Virus record (IMG/VR): IMGVR_UViG_3300048586_000924
Coordinates: 1-40,980 of that record
DNA from: a virus
Strand: one strand, 5' to 3'
DNA length: 40,980 nucleotides
Below the pieces are notes generated by a model that was given only the letters and a program-made list of their open reading frames with translations, did no database searches and was not told where the DNA came from. Shown piece after piece: positions 1 through 22,696 of the stretch (within the stretch, counting starts at the first letter, position 1; every line of letters starts with the position of its first letter). The position numbers were made by a program, and so were the translations under genes.

Positions 1-2523
1 TCACGCTGGAGCGCGCGGGACGATCGCGAGCCGCTGCCGGACCTGCTCATAAATTTGGATGGCTCCTGGCATTGCCAGGGTCACCGCAAAGCCGAAGGGG
101 ATGGCCTCGTCGATCGCCTCGCCCTGATCAGGATCACGTTGCACAGTCAACTTGATCGACATGCTCGGGCTAATCACGGCAGCGCTATCCCCAGTCCAGC
201 ACCTGTTGAAAAGGGTGCCACGATTTGTCTGGTTGCCGTCCGGCTGATTGGAATGCGCACTCACGCTCAAGTCGGCTAGGCCATCAGGCTCAAGAAGCTT
301 CAGACGGACGGCCCTGTAGCTCCTGCGGCCCGGTGAGATGGGAGTGAACCAGGCCAAAGTAGCTGAAAGCGAATGAGACGATGCCCTTCCCCCCATCGCT
401 ACCGGCAGCGGCACGTCGATATTGCAGACTTTGTTAGCTTCGAGCGTCCCTGTTGCCCAGAATGTTGCTCGATCGGCGGCGCAAGCCACCGCATCGTCAG
501 CATCGACGATGCCGAACCCGAGGAATCTCCGGATATTGTCCTTTTGTCGCGTGTGATACTTGCCTTCGGGCGGACCGATCGTTGTGCGAATGAGTGTGGC
601 GGCCTCGTCGGGCCAACTCGCCGGATGGGCGAGCAACGCCTTGATCAGGACCGCGCGCTGGACGTGGGGTAGGCGAACGAAGTCAGCGCCGTAGGCTGCC
701 TCAAGCGCATCATGAATGCGATGGCAGGTCCGCGATGCGAGTGCAGCTGCTCCACTCGTGCCGTTTGTGTAACTTTCGACGTTCTCGCGCCCTGCTTGCG
801 GTGGTCCGGCAACCTTCAGGCCGGCCGAACGGGCGGGGCCAGACGGCCTGACCTCTATATGCGGGTTGCTGCTGACCATTCGAAGATGTTCGCGCGCACC
901 GGGCATAAGGATGTCGGGCTTTACAGAACGCGCAAAGCCGGGTCCGAGTGCGCTCGACGGGTTGGCCATGCGCTGCTCTAAATACGGATTGACGATCGAT
1001 CTTGCTACTACGCGGTCGGCTACAGGAACCGCGTCGATATTGGCTGCGCCAACAGTAATACCGTTTACGGTCTCCGCTGGTGAAAATAGGCGCCGGTCCG
1101 CGACGAGCGCAGCAACTGCGCGCAGCGTTTCCGCAGACCGATGAGCAGATGGTGCGTCTTCAAACTGAATACTGTTTGCGTATGCGGTAATGGGAAACGG
1201 ATCTGTGCAATTTCCAGCGCTGACAATAAACAAAATTCCGTATTGATATGATAGACGATCTATCAATCTCGCCCATGCCGATATTTGCCCGTGAAACGGT
1301 CGGCGCGCATTTCCGAGCGACAAATTGACGATGAGGACATGCGGCGCTGTTGCATTGGCGCCCTCGCGCATTGCTACCACCGCGCGGAAAATGATGTCCA
1401 CAATAAGCCGGTCGTCCGGAAAGCAGTCCTGGGCGCCCATTACCGGCACTACATGCACCCGCCTCGGTAGTGGCGCCTCTGCCCGATTGCGATCTCCGTG
1501 TACGATCAGCGAAGCCATCGCGGTTCCATGGACACGGTTCGCAACAGGCGATTCGGGCTCCAACCCAAACTGATCATCAACCACCAGGTGCTCTGCAAGC
1601 AGTGGGTGGGCCGCGATCGGCACGCCGTCGAGAAGGGCCAGAATTGGCTCTGCAAGAGTTCGAGCACCTGGTGTGCTTCCCGCGTCATCGGCGTCTGCAA
1701 TATCAATGGAGCTCGCGATGCTTTGCGGTCGGATATGCATCACAGGATCCAATGACACAATGCTTGTGGGATTGCGGTCAATAATAGCACGCACAGCGTG
1801 GACTGGAAGTTCAGCCAGAATTGCGTGATAAGCGATAGAATCGATTCGGCATCTAGATATCAATCGTCCGCCCCAAGCCAGAACAGCAGTGAGAACTTCA
1901 TTTTCTCGGGCGATACCGACTTGATCGCCAGATCTGTAGACGAGCTCGATTTCAAGCTTCACGCGATCATCTTGGCTACGGCCGGCAATCTCTTCAGTCA
2001 AAATGTCTGACTCACGAGATTGAACCCGATCGGCTGCGCCCCACGGTCGCAGATCTCGCAGGAGCGAAAAAACATCTCTCCACGGGGTCTCCCCATGGCG
2101 AAGCTGATCAGCCGTCCACCGGCGCCATAAGGAAAGTAAGTCACCAAGCGCCCTGACATCGGGCACCATCAAGTACGCAACGGGAGCGTCGTCCTGACCG
2201 TCCCCTTCCAATTCCTCTTCGTCAACGAGTTCCAAGCCCGGCACGCGTCGCACTGCCGCGGCGAACTGCCCGACGCTGCCTCGCACCTCGAACACGAGCA
2301 GACGCTCGGGAGCCAGGGCCGTTGCGTCTGCCCTCAGTTCAAGGCCAGTGGAGTCGCGCTCTAGGACCTGCGCTAGGCGATCGAACTTCGGTGAAAAGGC
2401 AGCGGTCTGGCGCCCTTGTGGAAAGGCGTTAGGCTTCGGTACCGTCCTTTGCCTGCCTACGGGTCTGTCGCGAGCCGGCTGAGGCGCCAGTTTTAGAAGC
2501 GGCTTGGTCGGATCGCTCGCCAT
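1..2523 (-). CDS. ietS: Subtilisin-like serine protease, IetS-like toxin/defence partner
   Basis: An 840-aa S8-family peptidase. The catalytic triad is visible as Asp299 (LLDG), His332 (HGTAMAS) and Ser590 (GTSGAAALA), with the oxyanion Asn near 438 (VSAGN). About 290 N-terminal residues precede the catalytic domain and about 220 C-terminal residues follow; there is no signal peptide, so it should act in the cytoplasm. It overlaps the upstream AAA ATPase gene by 95 bp. Subtilase plus AAA-ATPase is the architecture of IetS/IetA of plasmid pTiC58, known as a plasmid stability and incompatibility toxin-antitoxin pair and later catalogued among phage-defence systems. The role here is inferred from that architecture. 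The next in-frame Met lies past residue 100, so this start is favoured. The gene has lower GC than the phage genes and ends exactly at base 1. Confidence 0.85.
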   Translation of the reverse strand: MASDPTKPLLKLAPQPARDRPVGRQRTVPKPNAFPQGRQTAAFSPKFDRLAQVLERDSTGLELRADATALAPERLLVFEVRGSVGQFAAAVRRVPGLELVDEEELEGDGQDDAPVAYLMVPDVRALGDLLSLWRRWTADQLRHGETPWRDVFSLLRDLRPWGAADRVQSRESDILTEEIAGRSQDDRVKLEIELVYRSGDQVGIARENEVLTAVLAWGGRLISRCRIDSIAYHAILAELPVHAVRAIIDRNPTSIVSLDPVMHIRPQSIASSIDIADADDAGSTPGARTLAEPILALLDGVPIAAHPLLAEHLVVDDQFGLEPESPVANRVHGTAMASLIVHGDRNRAEAPLPRRVHVVPVMGAQDCFPDDRLIVDIIFRAVVAMREGANATAPHVLIVNLSLGNARRPFHGQISAWARLIDRLSYQYGILFIVSAGNCTDPFPITAYANSIQFEDAPSAHRSAETLRAVAALVADRRLFSPAETVNGITVGAANIDAVPVADRVVARSIVNPYLEQRMANPSSALGPGFARSVKPDILMPGAREHLRMVSSNPHIEVRPSGPARSAGLKVAGPPQAGRENVESYTNGTSGAAALASRTCHRIHDALEAAYGADFVRLPHVQRAVLIKALLAHPASWPDEAATLIRTTIGPPEGKYHTRQKDNIRRFLGFGIVDADDAVACAADRATFWATGTLEANKVCNIDVPLPVAMGGRASSHSLSATLAWFTPISPGRRSYRAVRLKLLEPDGLADLSVSAHSNQPDGNQTNRGTLFNRCWTGDSAAVISPSMSIKLTVQRDPDQGEAIDEAIPFGFAVTLAMPGAIQIYEQVRQRLAIVPRAPA

Positions 2524-3505
2524 TCAGCGCCTCGGGTCGGACACGCGACGACCAAAGCCCCAGTTCAGTCTCGACCGCATCATCGATTTTCACTTCTCCA
2601 AGACCGAGTATTTGACGGCGCCGCACATTGTGACAGAAATCAAGCGCTTCGGCATAGCTCACGGGGCCAAGTCGGCTCGCCATTCTTTGAGCCGAGTGCC
2701 GCGGCGCAGATGGCCAGCCCGATACGATGCGTTCGAGGAACACCTCAACTTGCTTTCTATCCGGAGCAGGAAAGGACAACCTCATCTGGAATCGACGCCA
2801 AACAGCCCGATCAAGTAGTTCTGCATGATTGGTGGCGGCTATAACAATAACATAACTGGGAAGTTGATCTAGTTGCATCAAAAGAAACGAGACGACCCGC
2901 TTGATCTCGCCGGTTTCATGCGTGTCTCCCCGCTCTTTACCTATCGCATCGAACTCATCGAAGAATAAAATGCTGGGTTGTGTTCGAATGTAATCGAACA
3001 AATTCCGAAGTCGGACGTTTGTTTCTCCCAGATAGCTACCAATAAGGGAGTCGTATCGAACAACAAAAAAAGGAAGCGAAAGAGCTTCAGCAATAGCTTC
3101 GGCAAAAGACGTCTTCCCATTACCGGGCGGACCCGACAATAGTACGCGATGTCTGGGTTCGTAGCCGTGCGCCCTGAGCACGTCCGCCCTGGAATGCTCT
3201 TCTACAAGTTGGCGGCCAAGCTCACGGACCGGCAGCGGGAGAAGCAGGTCGTCGAGACGAGTCCTAGGCTGGACCTCTAAGATCGCTTCCCGTCCCGAAG
3301 TCGGTCCGCTGCTGCTCGACGTCGTCAGTGGGGGCGGCGTGACCGGCACAGCGGACAGCGCGCGCTGAAGCCTATCGGCCAAAATATGATGCTTCTTGGC
3401 TCGCTCATCGGCGGCCAGCGCCTCCGCGGCCGACTTCAGCGTCTGCCGATCGCCGGTAGCCGCTGCGCGAACAATTGAAACAAGGAGGTCGCTGCGAGCC
3501 ATCAC
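2429..3505 (-). CDS. ietA: AAA+ ATPase, IetA-like partner of the protease
   Basis: A 358-aa AAA ATPase of the FtsH/katanin-like type. Walker A is GPPGNGKT (about 125-132), Walker B FFDEFD (about 181-186), followed by a sensor-1 type AATN and an RR arginine-finger-like pair in AVWRRF. The N-terminal 110 residues are a likely partner- or substrate-binding region and the last 40 are basic and low-complexity. In the IetAS system the ATPase is the antitoxin or regulator of the subtilase; that role is transferred by analogy. The start is 12 bp after the stop of the integrase-associated HTH gene, so read-through from the leftward lysogeny operon is possible. A second Met follows immediately at 3502. 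AT-rich codons (for example around 3060-3075) contrast with flanking phage DNA, which suggests a separate origin. Confidence 0.85.
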   Translation of the reverse strand: MMARSDLLVSIVRAAATGDRQTLKSAAEALAADERAKKHHILADRLQRALSAVPVTPPPLTTSSSSGPTSGREAILEVQPRTRLDDLLLPLPVRELGRQLVEEHSRADVLRAHGYEPRHRVLLSGPPGNGKTSFAEAIAEALSLPFFVVRYDSLIGSYLGETNVRLRNLFDYIRTQPSILFFDEFDAIGKERGDTHETGEIKRVVSFLLMQLDQLPSYVIVIAATNHAELLDRAVWRRFQMRLSFPAPDRKQVEVFLERIVSGWPSAPRHSAQRMASRLGPVSYAEALDFCHNVRRRQILGLGEVKIDDAVETELGLWSSRVRPEALNGERSDQAASKTGASAGSRQTRRQAKDGTEA

Positions 3506-14757: not shown

Positions 14758-15524
14758 TGCTGGACCTCAACAGCCGCAGCCAGACCTCGATGCATGTGAA
14801 TGCTGCCATCGACGCGGTGCTGGTCGCCACCAACGCGGCCACGCCGCCGCGGACCTATCTCGGCGGCTCCCGCCTCGGCCATGCCTGCGAACGCGCGCTG
14901 CAATTTGAGTTCGTGAAGGCCCCGAAGGATGAGGGTTCCGATTTCGACGGCCGGCTGCTGCGCATCTTCGGGATCGGGCATGCGCTGGAGGATGTCGCCG
15001 TCGCCTGGCTGCGTGCCGCTGGCTTCGATCTCTACACCCGCCGCGGCGGCGGCGAGCATGGCGAGCAGTTCGGCTTCTCGGTCGCGGGCGGTCGCATCCG
15101 CGGCCACGTGGATGGCGTGTTGGCTGGCGGCCCCGCGATCCCCGGCATGGCATTCCCCGCGCTGTGGGAATGCAAGACCATGAACGCGAAGTCCTGGCGC
15201 GAGACGTCTAGCAAGGGCGTGGCGGCCAGCAAGCCGATCTACGCGGCGCAGATTGCGGTCTACCAGGCCTACATGGACGCCAGCGTCCCAGGCGTGGCGG
15301 ACAATCCGGCGCTGTTCACCGCCATCAATAAGGACACGGCGGAGCTGCATCACGAGCTGGTGCCGTTCAACGCGGAGCTGGCGCAGCGCATGTCGGACCG
15401 CGGCGTGCGCATCCTGGCCGCGACCGACGCGGGCGATCTCCTCCCGCGGATTGCCGCCCAGCCCGATCATTTCGAGTGTCGCTTCTGCCCCTGGGCCAAG
15501 CGCTGCTGGGCGTTGCCTGCATGA
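14757..15524 (+). CDS. PD-(D/E)XK exonuclease, RecB/Cas4-like with probable Fe-S cluster
   Basis: A 255-aa nuclease. The core is visible as GHVDG (catalytic Asp), WECKTM (Glu-x-Lys) and the QIAVYQAYM helix. Four cysteines are placed as in Cas4/AddB nucleases: one near residue 44 (HACERA) and three at the C-terminus (CRFCPWAKRC), likely holding a 4Fe-4S cluster. It would resect DNA ends for the Sak4-like annealing or recombination protein upstream. The stop overlaps the primase-helicase ATG. Metal and cluster binding are inferred from motifs. Confidence 0.85.
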   Translation: MLDLNSRSQTSMHVNAAIDAVLVATNAATPPRTYLGGSRLGHACERALQFEFVKAPKDEGSDFDGRLLRIFGIGHALEDVAVAWLRAAGFDLYTRRGGGEHGEQFGFSVAGGRIRGHVDGVLAGGPAIPGMAFPALWECKTMNAKSWRETSSKGVAASKPIYAAQIAVYQAYMDASVPGVADNPALFTAINKDTAELHHELVPFNAELAQRMSDRGVRILAATDAGDLLPRIAAQPDHFECRFCPWAKRCWALPA

Positions 15525-17872
15525 ACGCATGGGGCGACTTCAACGACGCTGCGCCACTGGTGGATGATGGCGCGACCGATATTCCCGCCAGTGGGAATAT
15601 CGAGATGGATCGGCTTCCCGGCGCTGGGCAGTCGATGCCTGCGGCCGTTGCGCCCATGGCGCCGGACATCGAGCAGATCGCCGGCTTCCTCGACGTGGTG
15701 TTCGGCTACTGCGACGGGCTGATCCCGGTCCGCGGCTTCGTCGATCAGGGCCAGGGGCTCAACATCAAGCCCCACAACATCTGGGTCCCGGCCGATCGGC
15801 ACGCCGCCGCATCCCTCAGCGCTTATGCCACCTGGGCAGCGCGCGAGGGCAGCGCCGTCTATGTCATCCCCGGCACCGTCGCCGAGCAGGGCCAGGCCCG
15901 CGCCGAGCATGTGCTGCAGATGCAGACTGTGGTGGTCGATCTCGACGCCGGCGACATCGCCGCCAAGCTGGCGCATCTGGTCCACCACCTGGGCGCGCCC
16001 ACCCTCCTGGTCGAAAGCGGCGGCCGCACCGCCGAGGGGGCCGCCAAGCTCCATGCGTGGTGGCGGCTCAGCGAGCCGGCCGAGGGGGAGGATCTGGCGC
16101 GGGTCTGCGCGCTGCGCGGCGAAGTCGCGGAGAAGGTTGGCGGCGACCTTCACTTCCGCTCCGCGCACCAGCCGATCCGGGTGCCCGGCACGGTCCACCA
16201 AAAGCATGGCGTGCAGCGGCGCGTCACGATCCGGGAGCACCGCCCCAGGGTCGAGGTGGAGCTCCCCGACTTTGCCGCGGCGGTGGCGGCCATGCCCACC
16301 ATGCCGGGCCTGGAACCGCCCACCGCTGCCGCTGGCGCCACCCGCCCCAGCCTGGATTCGGTTCTCACCACGCCGGTGCGCGAGGGGAGCCAGGACAGCT
16401 GGACCCGCTTCCAGGGCGCCAGCGCAGCCATCGGCCACTTCATCCGTCAGGTGCATGATGGCCGCCTGACGCCCGACCAGGGCTGGGAGGCCATCTGCGG
16501 TTACAACGCCGCCTGCCTGCGCCCCACCTGGCCACTGGACCGCCTCAAGGCGGAAGCCGATGCCCTCTGGGCGCTGCATGTCGAACGCAACGGGCCGGCG
16601 CTGCTTCGCGCGGGAGACGCGCCGCCAGCCGCCGTCCCGGCTCACACCCTGGGCACTCTGCTCGACGACACGTCCCCGATGCCCGACGACCTGATCGGGC
16701 CGCGCCTGCTGACCCCGGGTGGGATGCTGGTGCTGGGCGGCGCGCCGAAGGTCGGCAAATCCGATTTCCTGATCAACCTGCTGGTGCACGCCGCCGCCGG
16801 CGCACCCTTCCTACGCTTCACCGCACCGCGCCCGCTGCGGGTGTTCTATCTGCAGGCCGAGATCCAATACCACTACCTGCGCGAGCGCCTGCAGCAGCTG
16901 CGCCTCAGTCCCGGCGTCGTGGCGCGCGCCCGCGACACGCTGGTCGTCACGCCGAAGCTGCGCATGCTGCTCGATGACCCGGGCGTGCCGCTCGTCGCCG
17001 CCGCCATCCGCGCTGCGTTCCCCGATGCGCCGCCCGACATCATCTGCATCGATCCGATCCGGAACCTCTTCGATGGCGGGCCCGCAGGCGAGGGCGAGAA
17101 CGACAACGGGGCGATGATGTTCTTCCTGCAGAGCCGCGTTGAAGCATTGCGCGACCAGGTTGCCCCCGAGGCCGGCATCATTCTCGCCCATCACACGAAG
17201 AAGCTCAGCAAGCAGCAGGTGAAGGACGATCCCTTCATGGCGCTGTCCGGCGCCAGTGCGCTGCGCGGCTACTACACCTCGGGCGCCATCTTGTTCCGCC
17301 CCGACGAGGAGCAGACCGAGCGCGAACTGCATGTCGAGCTGCGCAACGGGCCCGGCCTCGAGCCGATGCTAGTCGACAAGCGTGGCGGCGCCTGGGTGGA
17401 GCTCGATCGTACGGGCCAGCGCCTGGTGCGGAAAGACATCGGCGGCAAGCTCGATGCCGAGCGCAGCCGGCGCCACGACGTCATCCTGCAAATCATCGCC
17501 AACGAGGCTCGCGAGGGGAAGGTCTTCACCGGCAGCGCCTTCGCCGCACAGTTCGAGAACACGCACGGGCTGGGCGGTGACGACACCATCGCCCGCCGCA
17601 TCAACGTCCTCGCCAACAAGGGCTACATCAAGTTCCTGCGCCAGGCGCCCGAGCTCGATATTCCCGTCAGCAAATCCACCAAGGGCTACCTCCTGGTGCA
17701 GGACATGCTCTTCGGGACGGACGGCGAGACGGTCGATCCTGAGACCGGCGAAATCACGCGCACCCTAGTCCCGCTGCTGCCGACGCACTTCCAATCGGAG
17801 ACCAACAACGCAGTTCTGCCCGTCGAGAATCCAGAAATCTGGGTGCTGAACGACCCGGAGGCCCAGGCATGA
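15521..17872 (+). CDS. Bifunctional primase-helicase (RepB-like primase plus RepA-like helicase)
   Basis: A 783-aa fusion. The N-terminal half contains a RepB/archaeo-eukaryotic-type primase-like region (about 120-240, VVVDLDAGD and a VESGG...HAWWRL segment, then RVPGTVHQK). Residues about 385-620 form a RepA/KaiC-like ATPase: Walker A GGAPKVGKS (406-414), Walker B IICIDPIRN, and ILAHHTKK. A C-terminal winged-helix-like region follows. RSF1010 encodes the same two activities as separate RepB' and RepA proteins. The start at 15521 overlaps the exonuclease stop (ATGA). Two hairpins lie just inside the 5' end, and the gene runs straight into the repeat array at 17.9 kb. Confidence 0.85.
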   Translation: MNAWGDFNDAAPLVDDGATDIPASGNIEMDRLPGAGQSMPAAVAPMAPDIEQIAGFLDVVFGYCDGLIPVRGFVDQGQGLNIKPHNIWVPADRHAAASLSAYATWAAREGSAVYVIPGTVAEQGQARAEHVLQMQTVVVDLDAGDIAAKLAHLVHHLGAPTLLVESGGRTAEGAAKLHAWWRLSEPAEGEDLARVCALRGEVAEKVGGDLHFRSAHQPIRVPGTVHQKHGVQRRVTIREHRPRVEVELPDFAAAVAAMPTMPGLEPPTAAAGATRPSLDSVLTTPVREGSQDSWTRFQGASAAIGHFIRQVHDGRLTPDQGWEAICGYNAACLRPTWPLDRLKAEADALWALHVERNGPALLRAGDAPPAAVPAHTLGTLLDDTSPMPDDLIGPRLLTPGGMLVLGGAPKVGKSDFLINLLVHAAAGAPFLRFTAPRPLRVFYLQAEIQYHYLRERLQQLRLSPGVVARARDTLVVTPKLRMLLDDPGVPLVAAAIRAAFPDAPPDIICIDPIRNLFDGGPAGEGENDNGAMMFFLQSRVEALRDQVAPEAGIILAHHTKKLSKQQVKDDPFMALSGASALRGYYTSGAILFRPDEEQTERELHVELRNGPGLEPMLVDKRGGAWVELDRTGQRLVRKDIGGKLDAERSRRHDVILQIIANEAREGKVFTGSAFAAQFENTHGLGGDDTIARRINVLANKGYIKFLRQAPELDIPVSKSTKGYLLVQDMLFGTDGETVDPETGEITRTLVPLLPTHFQSETNNAVLPVENPEIWVLNDPEAQA
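15577..15638 (+). repeat. Two adjacent inverted repeats in the primase-helicase 5' end
   Basis: CGATATTCCC (15577-15586) is perfectly mirrored by GGGAATATCG (15593-15602) with a 6-nt loop. Directly after it, 15608-15638 forms a second, imperfect palindrome whose right half CGCTGGGCAGTCGAT recurs exactly at 30422-30436. Both lie in coding sequence, 57 bp and 88 bp after the start codon. Confidence 0.6.
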
Positions 17873-17901
17873 AACGCCACTTCGATACGATACCGCACTG
17901 T

Positions 17902-18100
17902 GCGGAACTTGCTGCGGAACTTCCATGTTCCGCAAGTTCCGCAAGCCTGCGGAACTTACCTGCGGAACTTGAATCGCCCAGCGATATCAGTGGGTTGACC
18001 AAGTTCCGCAAGTTCCGCAGCGAGGCCGTGCGGAACTTGTTTGCGGAACTTCAAAATAACTCACGAAATCAGTGCCTTAGGCAAGTTCCGCAAGTTCCGC
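17902..18100. repeat. Origin-like array of twelve 9-bp repeats, paired and inverted
   Basis: Six copies of GCGGAACTT start at 17902, 17914, 17949, 17962, 18030 and 18043. Six copies of the complement AAGTTCCGC start at 17925 (one mismatch), 17934, 18001, 18010, 18083 and 18092. They form three blocks, each a forward pair (12-13 bp apart) then an inverted pair (9 bp apart). The arms are separated by 2, 30 and 31 bp, and the two long gaps share an ATCAGTG core (17986-17992 and 18068-18074). Blocks 2 and 3 repeat every 81-82 bp. Each block can form a long hairpin. The position after a primase-helicase gene suggests a replication origin with iterons and single-strand initiation hairpins. Confidence 0.85.
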
Positions 18101-18108
18101 AAAATGCT

Positions 18109-18156
18109 ACCCCCCTACGGGGGGTGTGCGTGCGCGTCCAAAAGACGCGCGCACAC
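18109..18156. repeat. C6-TAC-G6 palindrome and GC-rich hairpin beside the repeat array
   Basis: ACCCCCC (18109-18115), TAC, GGGGGGT (18119-18125) is a perfect 7-bp inverted repeat. It runs into a second stem: GTGTGCGTGCGCGTC (18124-18138) against GACGCGCGCAC (18144-18154) around a CAAAA loop, with two G-T wobble positions. There is no T-run after either, so a simple terminator is unlikely. The pair probably belongs to the same origin-like structure. The rest of this gene-free stretch up to 18297 shows nothing else that I can name. Confidence 0.6.
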
Positions 18157-18297
18157 CACACCCGGGGGCGCCTGGTTCGGGTTCGTGGACCACCACCCAC
18201 CAGGGTCAATCCACCCAAGCCGGGCAGCGACGGCGAGCTCCGCCAAGAACCGCGCCGTCGCCGCCCTCACCAGGATAATCCCCTCTCGGAGACCACC

Positions 18298-18843
18298 ATG
18301 GATTTCGCGACTCTCACCATGCCTGCCCCCGGCGCAAGCACCGTCCTGCCCGATCCCAATCTGTACCGGCCGCGCAAGCCGGGCATCCTGGCCCTCGACC
18401 TTGGCACCACCAGCGGCTGGGCCCTGCGCTTCGGGGACGGCGGAACGACCTCCGGCACCATGACCTTCAAGCCCGGCCGCTTCGAGGGCGGTGGCATGCG
18501 CTATCTCCGCTTCACCGACTGGCTCGTCGAAATCGCCATGCACGCGCACGGCCTCCGGCGCGTGGTATTCGAGGAGGTGCGCCGCCACGCCGGAACCGAC
18601 GCCAGCCACGTTTACGGCGGCTTCCTCGCCACGCTGACCTCGTGGTGCGAGGAGCATGAGGTGCCCTACGAGGGCGTCCCCGTCGGCACGATCAAGCGCT
18701 ACGCCACCGGCAAGGGCAATGCCGACAAGGCTGCGATGATCGAGGCCATCCGCGCTCGCGGGTTTCTGCCGGCCGACGACAATGAGGCCGATGCCATCGC
18801 CCTGCTGCTCTGGGCCACCGACCCCACTGGAGGCCGCGCATGA
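18298..18843 (+). CDS. RuvC-like Holliday-junction resolvase
   Basis: A 181-aa RNase H-fold nuclease. The catalytic carboxylates are visible in ALDLGTTSGWA (first strand Asp), VVFEEV (Glu) and DNEADAIALL (C-terminal Asp); the SHVYGGFLATL helix fits phage RuvC relatives. It would resolve recombination or replication intermediates before packaging. The start at 18298 is preceded by GGAGACCACC. The frame is open further upstream to an ATG at 17869, through the repeat array; that extension is low-complexity and lacks similarity, so it was not used. Its stop overlaps the next ATG. Confidence 0.85.
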   Translation: MDFATLTMPAPGASTVLPDPNLYRPRKPGILALDLGTTSGWALRFGDGGTTSGTMTFKPGRFEGGGMRYLRFTDWLVEIAMHAHGLRRVVFEEVRRHAGTDASHVYGGFLATLTSWCEEHEVPYEGVPVGTIKRYATGKGNADKAAMIEAIRARGFLPADDNEADAIALLLWATDPTGGRA

Positions 18844-19656: not shown

Positions 19657-19974
19657 TTACAATTCACCCCGTAGCGGCACCGAAATCGATAAGGCTAAAA
19701 GCAAGACACGTAGAGAAGGTGCGAGAGCGCCGCGGCTGAGCAGCCACGCTGCGGCTCAATCGAGACAGTGGCTCTCGAGCAGCAGGGTCCTTCCTGGCCC
19801 CGCTGTATGCGGGGGGCGGAAGCGCGCAACATCGCTAGCGCCAGGCCGAAAAACAGGGTTGCGGTTTGCAGCCTTTTCCCCGTGCGATCAGCCAGATAGA
19901 CCGCAAACCATGCCGCGCACGGTTTGCACTGGCGGCCGCATGGTTTGCACCCACTCCCAGATTCGGATGGCTCC
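19657..19974 (+). promoter_or_regulatory. Intergenic region with GGTTTGC operator-like repeats before the methyltransferases
   Basis: No gene is apparent in this stretch of about 320 bp. GGTTTGC occurs at 19863, 19921 and 19942, and inverted (GCAAACC) at 19903. The last two lie in a 14-bp direct repeat CGCAYGGTTTGCAC (19916-19929 and 19937-19950) spaced exactly 21 bp, two helical turns, ending 25 bp before the methyltransferase ATG. A short perfect hairpin CCCCGC-TGTAT-GCGGGG is at 19798-19814. The stretch is less GC-rich than neighbouring genes. It probably contains the promoter of the methyltransferase genes and an operator; the regulator is unknown. Confidence 0.6.
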
Positions 19975-21444
19975 ATGACGCTCCCCTGGATGGCGGCGAA
20001 GATCCTGCTGCGTCCGGTGGCGGAGCTGCGCCCGCACGCCGGCAACGCCCGGGTGCACAGCGCCGCGCAGCTTGAGCAGATCAAAACCAGCATGCTGTCC
20101 TTCGGGTTCACCAATCCGCTGCTGGTGGACGAGGCCGGCGTGCTGATCGCCGGGCACGGGCGGCTCGAGGCGGCGTCCGCACTCGGCATCGCCAAGGTGC
20201 CAGTCATCGTGCTGCGGCACCTTTCCGCCGCGCAGAAGGAGGCGCTGCGGCTCGCGGACAATCGCATCGCGGAGAACGCGACTTGGGACCAGGCGCTGCT
20301 GCGTGACGCGCTCGCCGCGGTGCAGGCGGCGCAGGACATCGATCTCGCGGCGCTCGGCTTCTCGGCGGATGAGCTCGCGGACATCCTCGCGGCGGCTGGA
20401 GATGCCGTGTCCGACGGCGACGCGCCCGAGGCTCTGTCCGCGGATCCCGCCGAGGGGGGCGGTGCGGCAGGCGCGGCGGGCGCCGGGGAGGAGCCGGCGG
20501 ACGACCCCGCCGATGCCGATCCGGAGCCGCCGCGCCAGGCCGTCACCCGCCCCGGCGAGCTGTGGCTGCTCGGCGAGCATCGCCTGCTCTGCGGTGACAG
20601 CACCGACGCCGCCACCGTGGCGCGGGTGATGGGTGAGGACCGCGCCGCGCTGCTGTTCACGTCGCCGCCCTATGGGAACCAGCGCGACTACACCACCGGC
20701 GGTGGCACCGATTGGGATGCCCTGATGCAGGGCGTGTTCCAGCATCTCGACGCCGCCTTGCGGCCGGATGGCCAGGTGCTGGTGAACCTGGGGCTGATCC
20801 ACCGCGACAGCGAATGGATCCCGTACTGGGCCGGATGGCTCGACTGGATGCGCGCCCGCGGCTGGCGACGCTTTGGCCTCTACACCTGGGACCAGGGGCC
20901 CGGCCTGCCCGGCGATTGGAACGGCCGCCTCGCACCCGCCTTCGAGTTCGTCTTCCACTTCAATCGCCAGGCCCGCCAGGCGAACAAAATCGTCCCCTGC
21001 AAATGGGCCGGCACGCCGAACAAGGGCAGCGGGCTGCGCGCCGCCGACGGGACCATCTCGGAATATCAGCATGCCGGGTTGCCGGTGCAGGACTTCCGCA
21101 TCCCCGACAACGTGCTGCGCCTGACCCGCCACAAGGGCCGCGGCATCGAGACCGAACACCCCGCAGTGTTCCCGGTGGTGCTGCCGGACTTTCTCATGCG
21201 GACCTACACGGACGAAGGCGAGGTCGTGTTCGAGCCCTTTGGCGGCTCGGGCACCACCATCCTGGCGGGCCAGCGCATTGGTCGCCGCGTGCGCGCCATC
21301 GAACTGGCGCCCGCGTATGTGGATCTGGCGATCGCCCGCTGGCGGATGCTGCATCCCGACTTGCCCGTGACGCTGTCGGACGATGGCCGCGATTACGACG
21401 CCGTGGCCGCGGCGCGAATGGAGGTCACCGCGAATGCAGCCTGA
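19975..21444 (+). CDS. ParB-domain/DNA methyltransferase fusion, TSPPY type
   Basis: A 489-aa two-domain protein. Residues about 8-140 are ParB-like (LRPHAGNARVHS, LIAGHGRLEAA, LRLADNRIAENA). After an acidic Ala/Pro linker comes a beta-class methyltransferase: catalytic TSPPY (229-233) precedes the SAM-binding FEPFGGSGTT (F422). TSPPY is often seen in N4-cytosine enzymes, so m4C is possible. The ParB-like part probably guides DNA contact. Its neighbour is a paralogue with DPPY. No restriction nuclease was seen, so a role in shielding phage DNA or marking it is inferred. The start at 19975 follows the operator-like repeats; a longer frame would cover them. Confidence 0.9.
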   Translation: MTLPWMAAKILLRPVAELRPHAGNARVHSAAQLEQIKTSMLSFGFTNPLLVDEAGVLIAGHGRLEAASALGIAKVPVIVLRHLSAAQKEALRLADNRIAENATWDQALLRDALAAVQAAQDIDLAALGFSADELADILAAAGDAVSDGDAPEALSADPAEGGGAAGAAGAGEEPADDPADADPEPPRQAVTRPGELWLLGEHRLLCGDSTDAATVARVMGEDRAALLFTSPPYGNQRDYTTGGGTDWDALMQGVFQHLDAALRPDGQVLVNLGLIHRDSEWIPYWAGWLDWMRARGWRRFGLYTWDQGPGLPGDWNGRLAPAFEFVFHFNRQARQANKIVPCKWAGTPNKGSGLRAADGTISEYQHAGLPVQDFRIPDNVLRLTRHKGRGIETEHPAVFPVVLPDFLMRTYTDEGEVVFEPFGGSGTTILAGQRIGRRVRAIELAPAYVDLAIARWRMLHPDLPVTLSDDGRDYDAVAAARMEVTANAA

Positions 21445-22696
21445 CCTCGTGATCTCCGCTCTGCCGCTGGCAGCGCTGGTCCCCTATGCCGAGAACGCGC
21501 GCACGCATTCGCCGTCGCAGGTGGCGCAGATCGCGGCGTCCATCGCCGAGTTCGGCTTCGTGAATCCGGTGCTGATCGACGCCGAGGGCGTGCTCATTGC
21601 CGGCCACGGCCGCGTCATGGCCGCGAAGCAGCTCGGGCTGGCCGCCGTGCCGGTGCTGCGGCTTGGCCACCTTTCCCCGGCGCAGGCGCGTGCCCTGCGG
21701 CTCGCGGACAACCAGATCGCGCTGAACTCTGGTTGGGACGAGGCGCTGCTCGCCGCCGAGATCGCGCGCATCCGCGACGATGCGGTGGTCGACCTGGACG
21801 TGCTCGGCTTCTCCGGCATGGAGCTGGACCGGCTGCTGGCGGCGGCTGATGCCGGCCTCGGCGATGACGCCGACGAAGCGCCGCCCCCGCCCGTGGTGCC
21901 CGTGTCGCGCACCGGGGATCTCTGGCGCTGTGGCGACCACCGCCTGCTCTGCGGCGACGCGACGCAGCTGGCCGACGTGCAGCGCGCCCTTGGCGCCGGC
22001 CACTTGGCCGACATGGGCTTCGTCGATCCACCCTACAACGTGGCCTACGAGGGCGGCACCGCGGCCAAGATGACCATCGCCAATGACGCGCTCGGCGGCG
22101 GCTTTCCCGACTTCCTCCGTCCCGCGCTGGCCAACCTGCTCTCGGTCACCAAGGGCGCCTGCTACGTCTGCATGTCTTCCTCCGAATGGCCGACGCTGCA
22201 TCGCGTCTGGCAGGAGGCAGGCGGCAAATGGTCGAGCACCATCATCTGGGCGAAGAACACCTTCGCCCTCGGCCGCGCCGACTACCACCAGCAGTTCGAG
22301 GCGATGCTCTACGGCTGGCGCCAGGGCAGTCAGCACTATTGGTGCGGCGCGCGTGACCAGGGAAACGTCTGGCACTTCGACAAGCCGGCCCGCAGCGACC
22401 TCCATCCCACCATGAAGCCGGTGGCGCTGGTCGAGCGTGCGATCCGCAACAGCAGCAAGCCGCGCGACACGGTGCTGGACTGCTTCGGCGGGTCGGGCAC
22501 CACCATGATCGCGGCGGAGCGGACGGGGCGGCGTGCCGTGTTGCTGGAGATCGATCCTGCCTATGCCGATGTCATCGTCCGGCGCTGGCAGGAGACGACC
22601 GGCGAAGCCGCCGTGCTGGAGGGGGATGATCGCATCTTCGCTGATATCGCCGCAGCCCGCAGGGTCGTCGATCATGATGTAATCCAGACCGCCTAA
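21434..22696 (+). CDS. ParB-domain/DNA methyltransferase fusion, DPPY type
   Basis: A 420-aa paralogue of the preceding gene with the same layout. The ParB-like domain (about 5-130: LVPYAENARTHS, LIAGHGRVMAA, LRLADNQIALN) precedes a beta-class methyltransferase with DPPYN (Asp198) and FGGSGTT (Phe351). DPPY is typical of N6-adenine enzymes. It overlaps the first methyltransferase by 11 bp, so the two are made together. The pair may modify two different sites. The linker is short and Pro-rich (APPPPVVP). A tandem duplication followed by divergence of the catalytic motif is likely. Confidence 0.9.
   Translation: MQPDLVISALPLAALVPYAENARTHSPSQVAQIAASIAEFGFVNPVLIDAEGVLIAGHGRVMAAKQLGLAAVPVLRLGHLSPAQARALRLADNQIALNSGWDEALLAAEIARIRDDAVVDLDVLGFSGMELDRLLAAADAGLGDDADEAPPPPVVPVSRTGDLWRCGDHRLLCGDATQLADVQRALGAGHLADMGFVDPPYNVAYEGGTAAKMTIANDALGGGFPDFLRPALANLLSVTKGACYVCMSSSEWPTLHRVWQEAGGKWSSTIIWAKNTFALGRADYHQQFEAMLYGWRQGSQHYWCGARDQGNVWHFDKPARSDLHPTMKPVALVERAIRNSSKPRDTVLDCFGGSGTTMIAAERTGRRAVLLEIDPAYADVIVRRWQETTGEAAVLEGDDRIFADIAAARRVVDHDVIQTA

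Follow-up and report, generated by a model that had tools for sequence, protein, structure and literature searches.

A repeat array that changes together with the winged-helix domain of a phage primase-helicase is a probable replication origin

Results

The repeat array and its gene surroundings

The DNA analysed here (the window) is the whole 40,980-base virus record IMGVR_UViG_3300048586_000924, positions 1 to 40,980. Its gene set is that of a temperate tailed phage, with a large serine integrase, a replication module, and terminase, portal, head and tape-measure genes. At one end (window 1-3505, minus strand) an AAA ATPase adjoins a subtilase-like protease, possibly an accessory or defence pair at the prophage edge. 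The array under study is located within the replication module, ~7 kb ahead of the terminase gene, between two co-directional genes that encode a primase-helicase and a RuvC-like protein (Table 1). Downstream of the array, two consecutive genes (window 19924-21444 and 21383-22696) encode proteins in which a ParB-like N-terminal part is fused to a DNA methyltransferase.

Twelve 9-mers occupy positions 17902-18100. Eleven are exact copies of GCGGAACTT and one, at 17925 on the minus strand, reads GCGGAACAT. By shuffling, only 0.23 exact copies of GCGGAACTT are expected in the whole window, and the largest count in 100 dinucleotide-preserving shuffles was 2. An earlier note on this DNA had described twelve near-identical 9-mers in three forward-pair/inverted-pair units, and both observations stand: the orientation is FF-RR / FF-loop-RR / FF-loop-RR. 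The 81-82 bp period given in that note applies to blocks 2 and 3 (17949 to 18030, 18001 to 18083) but not to block 1, which is compact. The array is non-coding, since the reading frame that runs through it (17869-18843) lacks the third-position excess of a gene: substitution rates by codon position are 0.12, 0.11 and 0.11 in the array frame and 0.11, 0.10 and 0.25 in the RuvC-like gene. This frame, in which codon periodicity is absent ahead of the RuvC-like start at 18298, was therefore rejected as coding sequence. Three further single 9-mers lie inside genes (window 12886, 28892 and 30524); codon usage may explain them, because two read AAG TTC CGC (Lys-Phe-Arg) if in frame. Inspection by eye revealed no extended AT-rich unwinding element near the array, GC skew was monotonic and hence uninformative as an origin sign, and Rfam gave nothing above threshold.

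The two long loops share an ATCAGTG core, as previously noticed; what had been missed is that this core belongs to an exact match to the IHF consensus, WATCARNNNNTTR, in each loop. To the right of the array, a C6-TAC-G6 palindrome and a GC hairpin are both present as the earlier note had them, and both are predicted to fold stably.

Table 1. Features of the replication locus (window positions, or residues of the primase-helicase)
Feature	Position	Strand	Details
Primase-helicase-winged-helix gene	15476..17872	+	798 aa; true start may be slightly downstream of GTG
AEP primase domain	residues about 60-280		Foldseek of AlphaFold model against PDB
RepA-like helicase domain	residues about 390-640		Foldseek; Pfam AAA_25
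C-terminal winged-helix domain	17438..17869	+	residues 655-798 (winged helix about 660-798); proposed initiator/specificity domain
Helix 3 of winged-helix domain	residues about 701-714
Wing of winged-helix domain	residues about 717-741
Repeat block 1	17902..17942		FF 17902, 17914; RR 17925 (one mismatch), 17934; compact, without loop or IHF site
Repeat block 2	17949..18018		FF 17949, 17962; IHF site 1; RR 18001, 18010
IHF site 1	17985..17997	+	TATCAGTGGGTTG; exact consensus
Repeat block 3	18030..18100		FF 18030, 18043; IHF site 2; RR 18083, 18092
IHF site 2	18067..18079	+	AATCAGTGCCTTA; exact consensus
CCCCCC-TAC-GGGGGG hairpin, first of double hairpin	18110..18124		stable predicted fold
Long GC hairpin	18119..18163		overlaps right arm of first hairpin; conserved fold, 3' bulge
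RuvC-like resolvase gene	18298..18843	+	PHROG 159

Primase, helicase and winged helix in one protein

The suggestion that the adjacent gene joins a RepB-like primase to a RepA-like helicase is confirmed by the predicted folds. In Foldseek searches of the PDB, the primase part matches the S-2L PrimPol (E 7e-9) and RSF1010 RepB' (3h20, E 2e-7; 3h25, E 1e-6), and the helicase part matches RSF1010 RepA (1nlf, E 1e-2, probability 1.0) in a region of moderate model confidence. The structure matches and Pfam AAA_25 place the helicase in the RepA/RecA fold and not among SF3 helicases. Confidence in the AlphaFold model of the whole protein is moderate (mean pLDDT 65). Modelled alone, the C-terminal domain is confident, with pLDDT about 80-95 over its core, and shows both the succession of helices and the wing expected of a winged helix; its PDB matches are weak and are to winged-helix regulators (best E 0.08).

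A conserved scaffold carries exchangeable repeats

A search with the 798-aa primase-helicase yielded at least 80 viral-contig loci and 80 bacterial-genome loci, the latter mainly from Acetobacteraceae (Falsiroseomonas, Neoroseomonas, Roseococcus and others) and Rhodobacterales; ~140 related phage and prophage loci were compared. The earlier note had proposed looking for the same layout downstream of homologous primase-helicase genes, and had held that its absence from relatives with the same replication genes would refute an origin. In nearly all listed relatives with downstream coverage, an array directly follows the primase-helicase, so this check did not refute the proposal. The layout is thus kept, but the repeat sequence, as that note had missed, changes between relatives. 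The repeats fall into at least 15 discrete sequence classes, among them A (GCGGAACTT), B (CCGAAACTGC), C (CTAACTCCTC), D (TGGCAACTG), E (TTCCCAACTT), F (CTAACTCATATG), H (GGAATCTGG) and I (TGGCAGCTT).

IHF sites are a recurrent part of this layout. We found 109 exact matches to WATCARNNNNTTR in 142 array regions, all on the plus strand, where ~1.0 is expected; the density is 2.56 per kb in arrays and 0.011 per kb elsewhere in the loci. The order F (F)-IHF1-R (R)-F (F)-IHF2-R (R) is kept in ten repeat classes with an IHF1-IHF2 distance of 79-82 bp, some of the sites having one or two mismatches. Because this order persists across unrelated repeat classes, the scaffold is evidently conserved, and it is the repeat sequence that is exchanged. 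At the sequence level, clustered repeats with IHF sites are what is seen at iteron origins that use IHF, a well-known arrangement (PMC5043065). Loci of E/G/P type (hairpin type h3) have repeats, though no clear pair of IHF sites was seen in them.

The double hairpin is likewise conserved in relatives. A short hairpin, whose loop reads TAC or TTC, supplies, through its right arm, the outer left arm of a longer hairpin that carries a small bulge on its 3' side. Both sides of the stems show base changes (for example in L113 and L116), and one hairpin type is common to eight repeat classes. A division of labour in which a conserved primase goes with the conserved hairpin, and a variable winged helix with the variable repeats, fits these patterns. 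The idea that hairpin type follows the primase was not cleanly borne out, with 10 changes on the primase tree, 7 on the helicase tree and 8 on the C-terminal tree. At one locus (L030:2979-3280) the double hairpin seems to be cleanly absent between the array and the RuvC-like gene, through either a real deletion or an assembly artefact.

Repeat class tracks the C-terminal domain

For classes A-D, amino-acid identity within classes exceeds that between classes by 0.00-0.01 over residues 1-625 of the primase-helicase, and by about 0.25-0.33 over residues 651-775. The 45 most class-informative positions all lie within residues 664-797. On trees of 135 loci, the fewest changes of class are 47 for the primase, 36 for the helicase and 14 for the C-terminal domain, the last being the minimum possible for 15 classes. 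The neighbouring genes tested do not behave in this way. The within-between difference reaches 0.284 in the C-terminal domain, against 0.016 in the RuvC-like gene and at most 0.017 in the other tested neighbour genes within about 6 kb, one apparently non-genic frame excluded; the ParB-like/methyltransferase genes tested, at 0.005, show no class tracking. Moreover, where the start of helix 3 is similar, the repeats are related: classes C and F share CTAACTC, B and L share CCGAAACT, and D and I share TGGCARCT. The array and the domain are physically adjacent, and linkage could therefore account for part of the coupling.

Close relatives document the exchange itself. In L028 and L031 the N-terminal parts are 97% identical, the C-terminal parts 61%, and the repeats differ. 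The closest pairs are for the most part 90-98% identical in DNA on either side, with a drop confined to the stretch between about -400 and +230 relative to the gene end. On this evidence, the array and the C-terminal domain move between phages as a single cassette of ~630 bp with conserved flanks. Some other frames (G009:C51:55389-56339, G010:C22:21735-22715 and similar ones) have a primase part about 52% identical and an unmatched helicase part; here the helicase domain has possibly been exchanged as well.

Several module copies can reside in one genome. One chromosome-sized contig (G330) contains three (L162, L163 and L164), of classes B, A and A, which indicates that copies of the same class can coexist. 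Exclusion of same-class prophages within a genome gave no signal, as 4 of 25 co-resident pairs share a class and ~5.3 are expected with shuffled labels.

Discussion

The comparison with related loci supports the earlier proposal of a candidate origin beside the primase-helicase. We consider it highly probable, from the sequence comparisons and structure models, that the array is the phage replication origin and is bound by the C-terminal winged-helix domain of the protein encoded immediately upstream. Because repeat class tracks this domain, the part of initiator most likely falls to that winged helix itself, rather than to a missing or host factor.

We infer the steps from repeat binding and IHF occupancy to origin firing and hairpin priming from the sequence and the models. 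Several protein copies would attach by their winged helices to the repeats, which are paired and point in opposite directions, and host IHF would bend the DNA at both sites between forward and reverse pairs so that the pairs come to face each other. This would load the tethered RepA-like helicase, which would then open the DNA. The hairpins exposed to the right would provide start sites for the RepB'-like primase, as RSF1010 suggests, and host polymerase would extend after priming; by analogy, we propose the long GC hairpin as the primase entry (ssi-like) site. Specificity would reside in the winged helix and the repeats, which are swapped together, whereas the primase, the helicase, the IHF sites and the hairpin remain shared. 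Since array and DNA-binding tail are exchanged as a matched pair, each phage lineage would possess a private replication start signal.

Other uses of the array have to be weighed against an origin bound by the winged helix. The best of the alternatives, though an unlikely one, is that the array is solely an operator: the primase-helicase would bind it by its winged helix and so repress, or set the timing of, transcription of its own gene or the RuvC-like gene. The location between two co-directional genes and the weak resemblance of the winged-helix model to transcription regulators would suit such a role, and initiators often autoregulate. However, the DNA-binding domain is fused to a primase and a helicase, the array follows the gene instead of preceding it, and an ordinary operator would hardly comprise twelve sites together with two IHF bends and hairpins of primase type. 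Operator and origin roles are compatible.

Alternatively, the array might serve some other host or phage protein, the link with the C-terminal domain arising only because the two are neighbours in one recombination tract. Array and domain are indeed adjacent and swap together. Nevertheless, the other recogniser would have to change class too, and no tested neighbour phage gene within about 6 kb does so strongly; nor is one host protein likely to recognise the several repeat classes found in one host. Divergent class A loci, moreover, keep repeats 93% identical while their spacers fall to 63%. We regard this explanation as improbable.

Still less credible is a scheme in which replication resembles that of RSF1010 and uses a separate RepC-like initiator or, as the earlier note had it, a new or host-encoded one. 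The RSF1010-type primase and helicase suggest it, but class tracks the C-terminal domain of the very same protein and no separate tested gene, and this disfavours a separate factor. A partition (centromere-like) or packaging site is the least plausible reading of all: P1 parS and lambda cosB have a generally similar form of paired repeats with IHF bends, and two downstream genes have ParB-like N-terminal parts, but those tested do not follow class and the array lies in the replication module, well before the terminase gene.

An origin recognised by the winged helix would have wider implications. We see an even chance that at least 15 natural orthogonal initiator-origin pairs share a common IHF-folded scaffold, are shuffled by cassettes bordered at the helicase/winged-helix junction and the hairpin, are possibly selected because same-class resident prophages act as decoys, and belong to an architecture that reaches as far as Wolbachia phage WO. 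Lambda replication is blocked by additional copies of its origin (PMC4488673), and an effect of this kind would give a reason for diversification; yet co-resident prophages show no same-class avoidance. The phage family concerned is common in Acetobacteraceae and Rhodobacterales and has relatives in phage WO. Its natural classes offer a ready set from which to learn how a winged helix specifies its DNA target, and for work on replicons that perhaps do not cross-react.

In the Wolbachia phage WOVitB (L182:5687-5920), a repeat array (AAGTTGGCA/AGATGGCA) with one perfect IHF site (AATCAATAGCTTA) directly follows the RepA gene, whose product is related over the helicase and C-terminal domain (41% identity). 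The frequency of its top repeated 7-mer was reached in 3 of 2000 shuffles; the IHF consensus is weak by itself, since it occurred in 61 of 2000. We found no description of a phage WO origin in the literature, and the accessible part of a large WO genomics paper (PMC9203015) mentions neither the word RepA nor a phage origin; the WOVitB array is a candidate for it. A betaproteobacterial relative on an Eleftheria terrae plasmid (L185:4251-4565) shows a reduced layout, with CAGTTGGC repeats and a hairpin before a RuvC-like gene.

The exchange of origin specificity as a cassette, apart from the remaining replication machine, is comparable to that of lambdoid O/ori. In lambda O, the specificity domain and the repeats are inherited together, and different specificities occur within one phage group; here too, array and proposed initiator specificity domain travel together. 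In lambda, however, the O gene itself contains the repeats and its product brings in the helicase of the host; the putative initiator described here is instead joined to a helicase and a primase in one polypeptide. The primase and helicase folds, as well as repeats accompanied by hairpins proposed as primase sites, recall oriV of RSF1010 (IncQ). Both the RepB'-type primase and the RecA-fold RepA helicase are present in the phage, and no separate gene, among those tested, tracks repeat class in the manner of a RepC initiator; in contrast to RSF1010, primase and helicase are fused, IHF sites are present, the repeats are paired and inverted rather than tandem, and the proposed repeat binder is the C-terminal winged helix instead of a separate RepC.

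All-in-one initiators with a C-terminal winged helix are known in P4 alpha and pRN1 ORF904 (PMC4234260). As in P4 alpha, whose winged helix binds the origin repeats (PMC4234260), one protein contains primase, helicase and C-terminal winged helix, but the P4 primase is of Toprim type, whereas here an AEP primase is combined with a RepA-like RecA-fold helicase, the array follows the gene at once, and there are two IHF sites. ORF904 likewise unites an AEP primase, a helicase and a C-terminal winged helix, and the pRN1 origin, with a conserved stem-loop, lies directly downstream of its own gene (PMC4234260), as does the candidate origin described here; unlike the phage locus, pRN1 lacks an iteron structure and has just one large stem-loop, and its helicase belongs to SF3. 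Similar in domain order is the PrimQH family of PrimPol-PV1, whose members combine an AEP primase, a PriCT or zinc-binding domain, a P-loop helicase and a C-terminal winged helix (PMC5862659); of these parts, the primase, helicase and winged helix are found in the phage protein. The helicase of such fusions is in some cases of RepA type, and a role of the winged helix in recognising the origin has already been suggested (PMC5862659). That same text, as available to us, gives no origin, repeat partner or class exchange for the family. What is new here is that these features occur together, that a repeat partner has been identified and that specificity is exchanged as a cassette; the published suggestion (PMC5862659) thereby becomes a specific, testable pairing with known sites.
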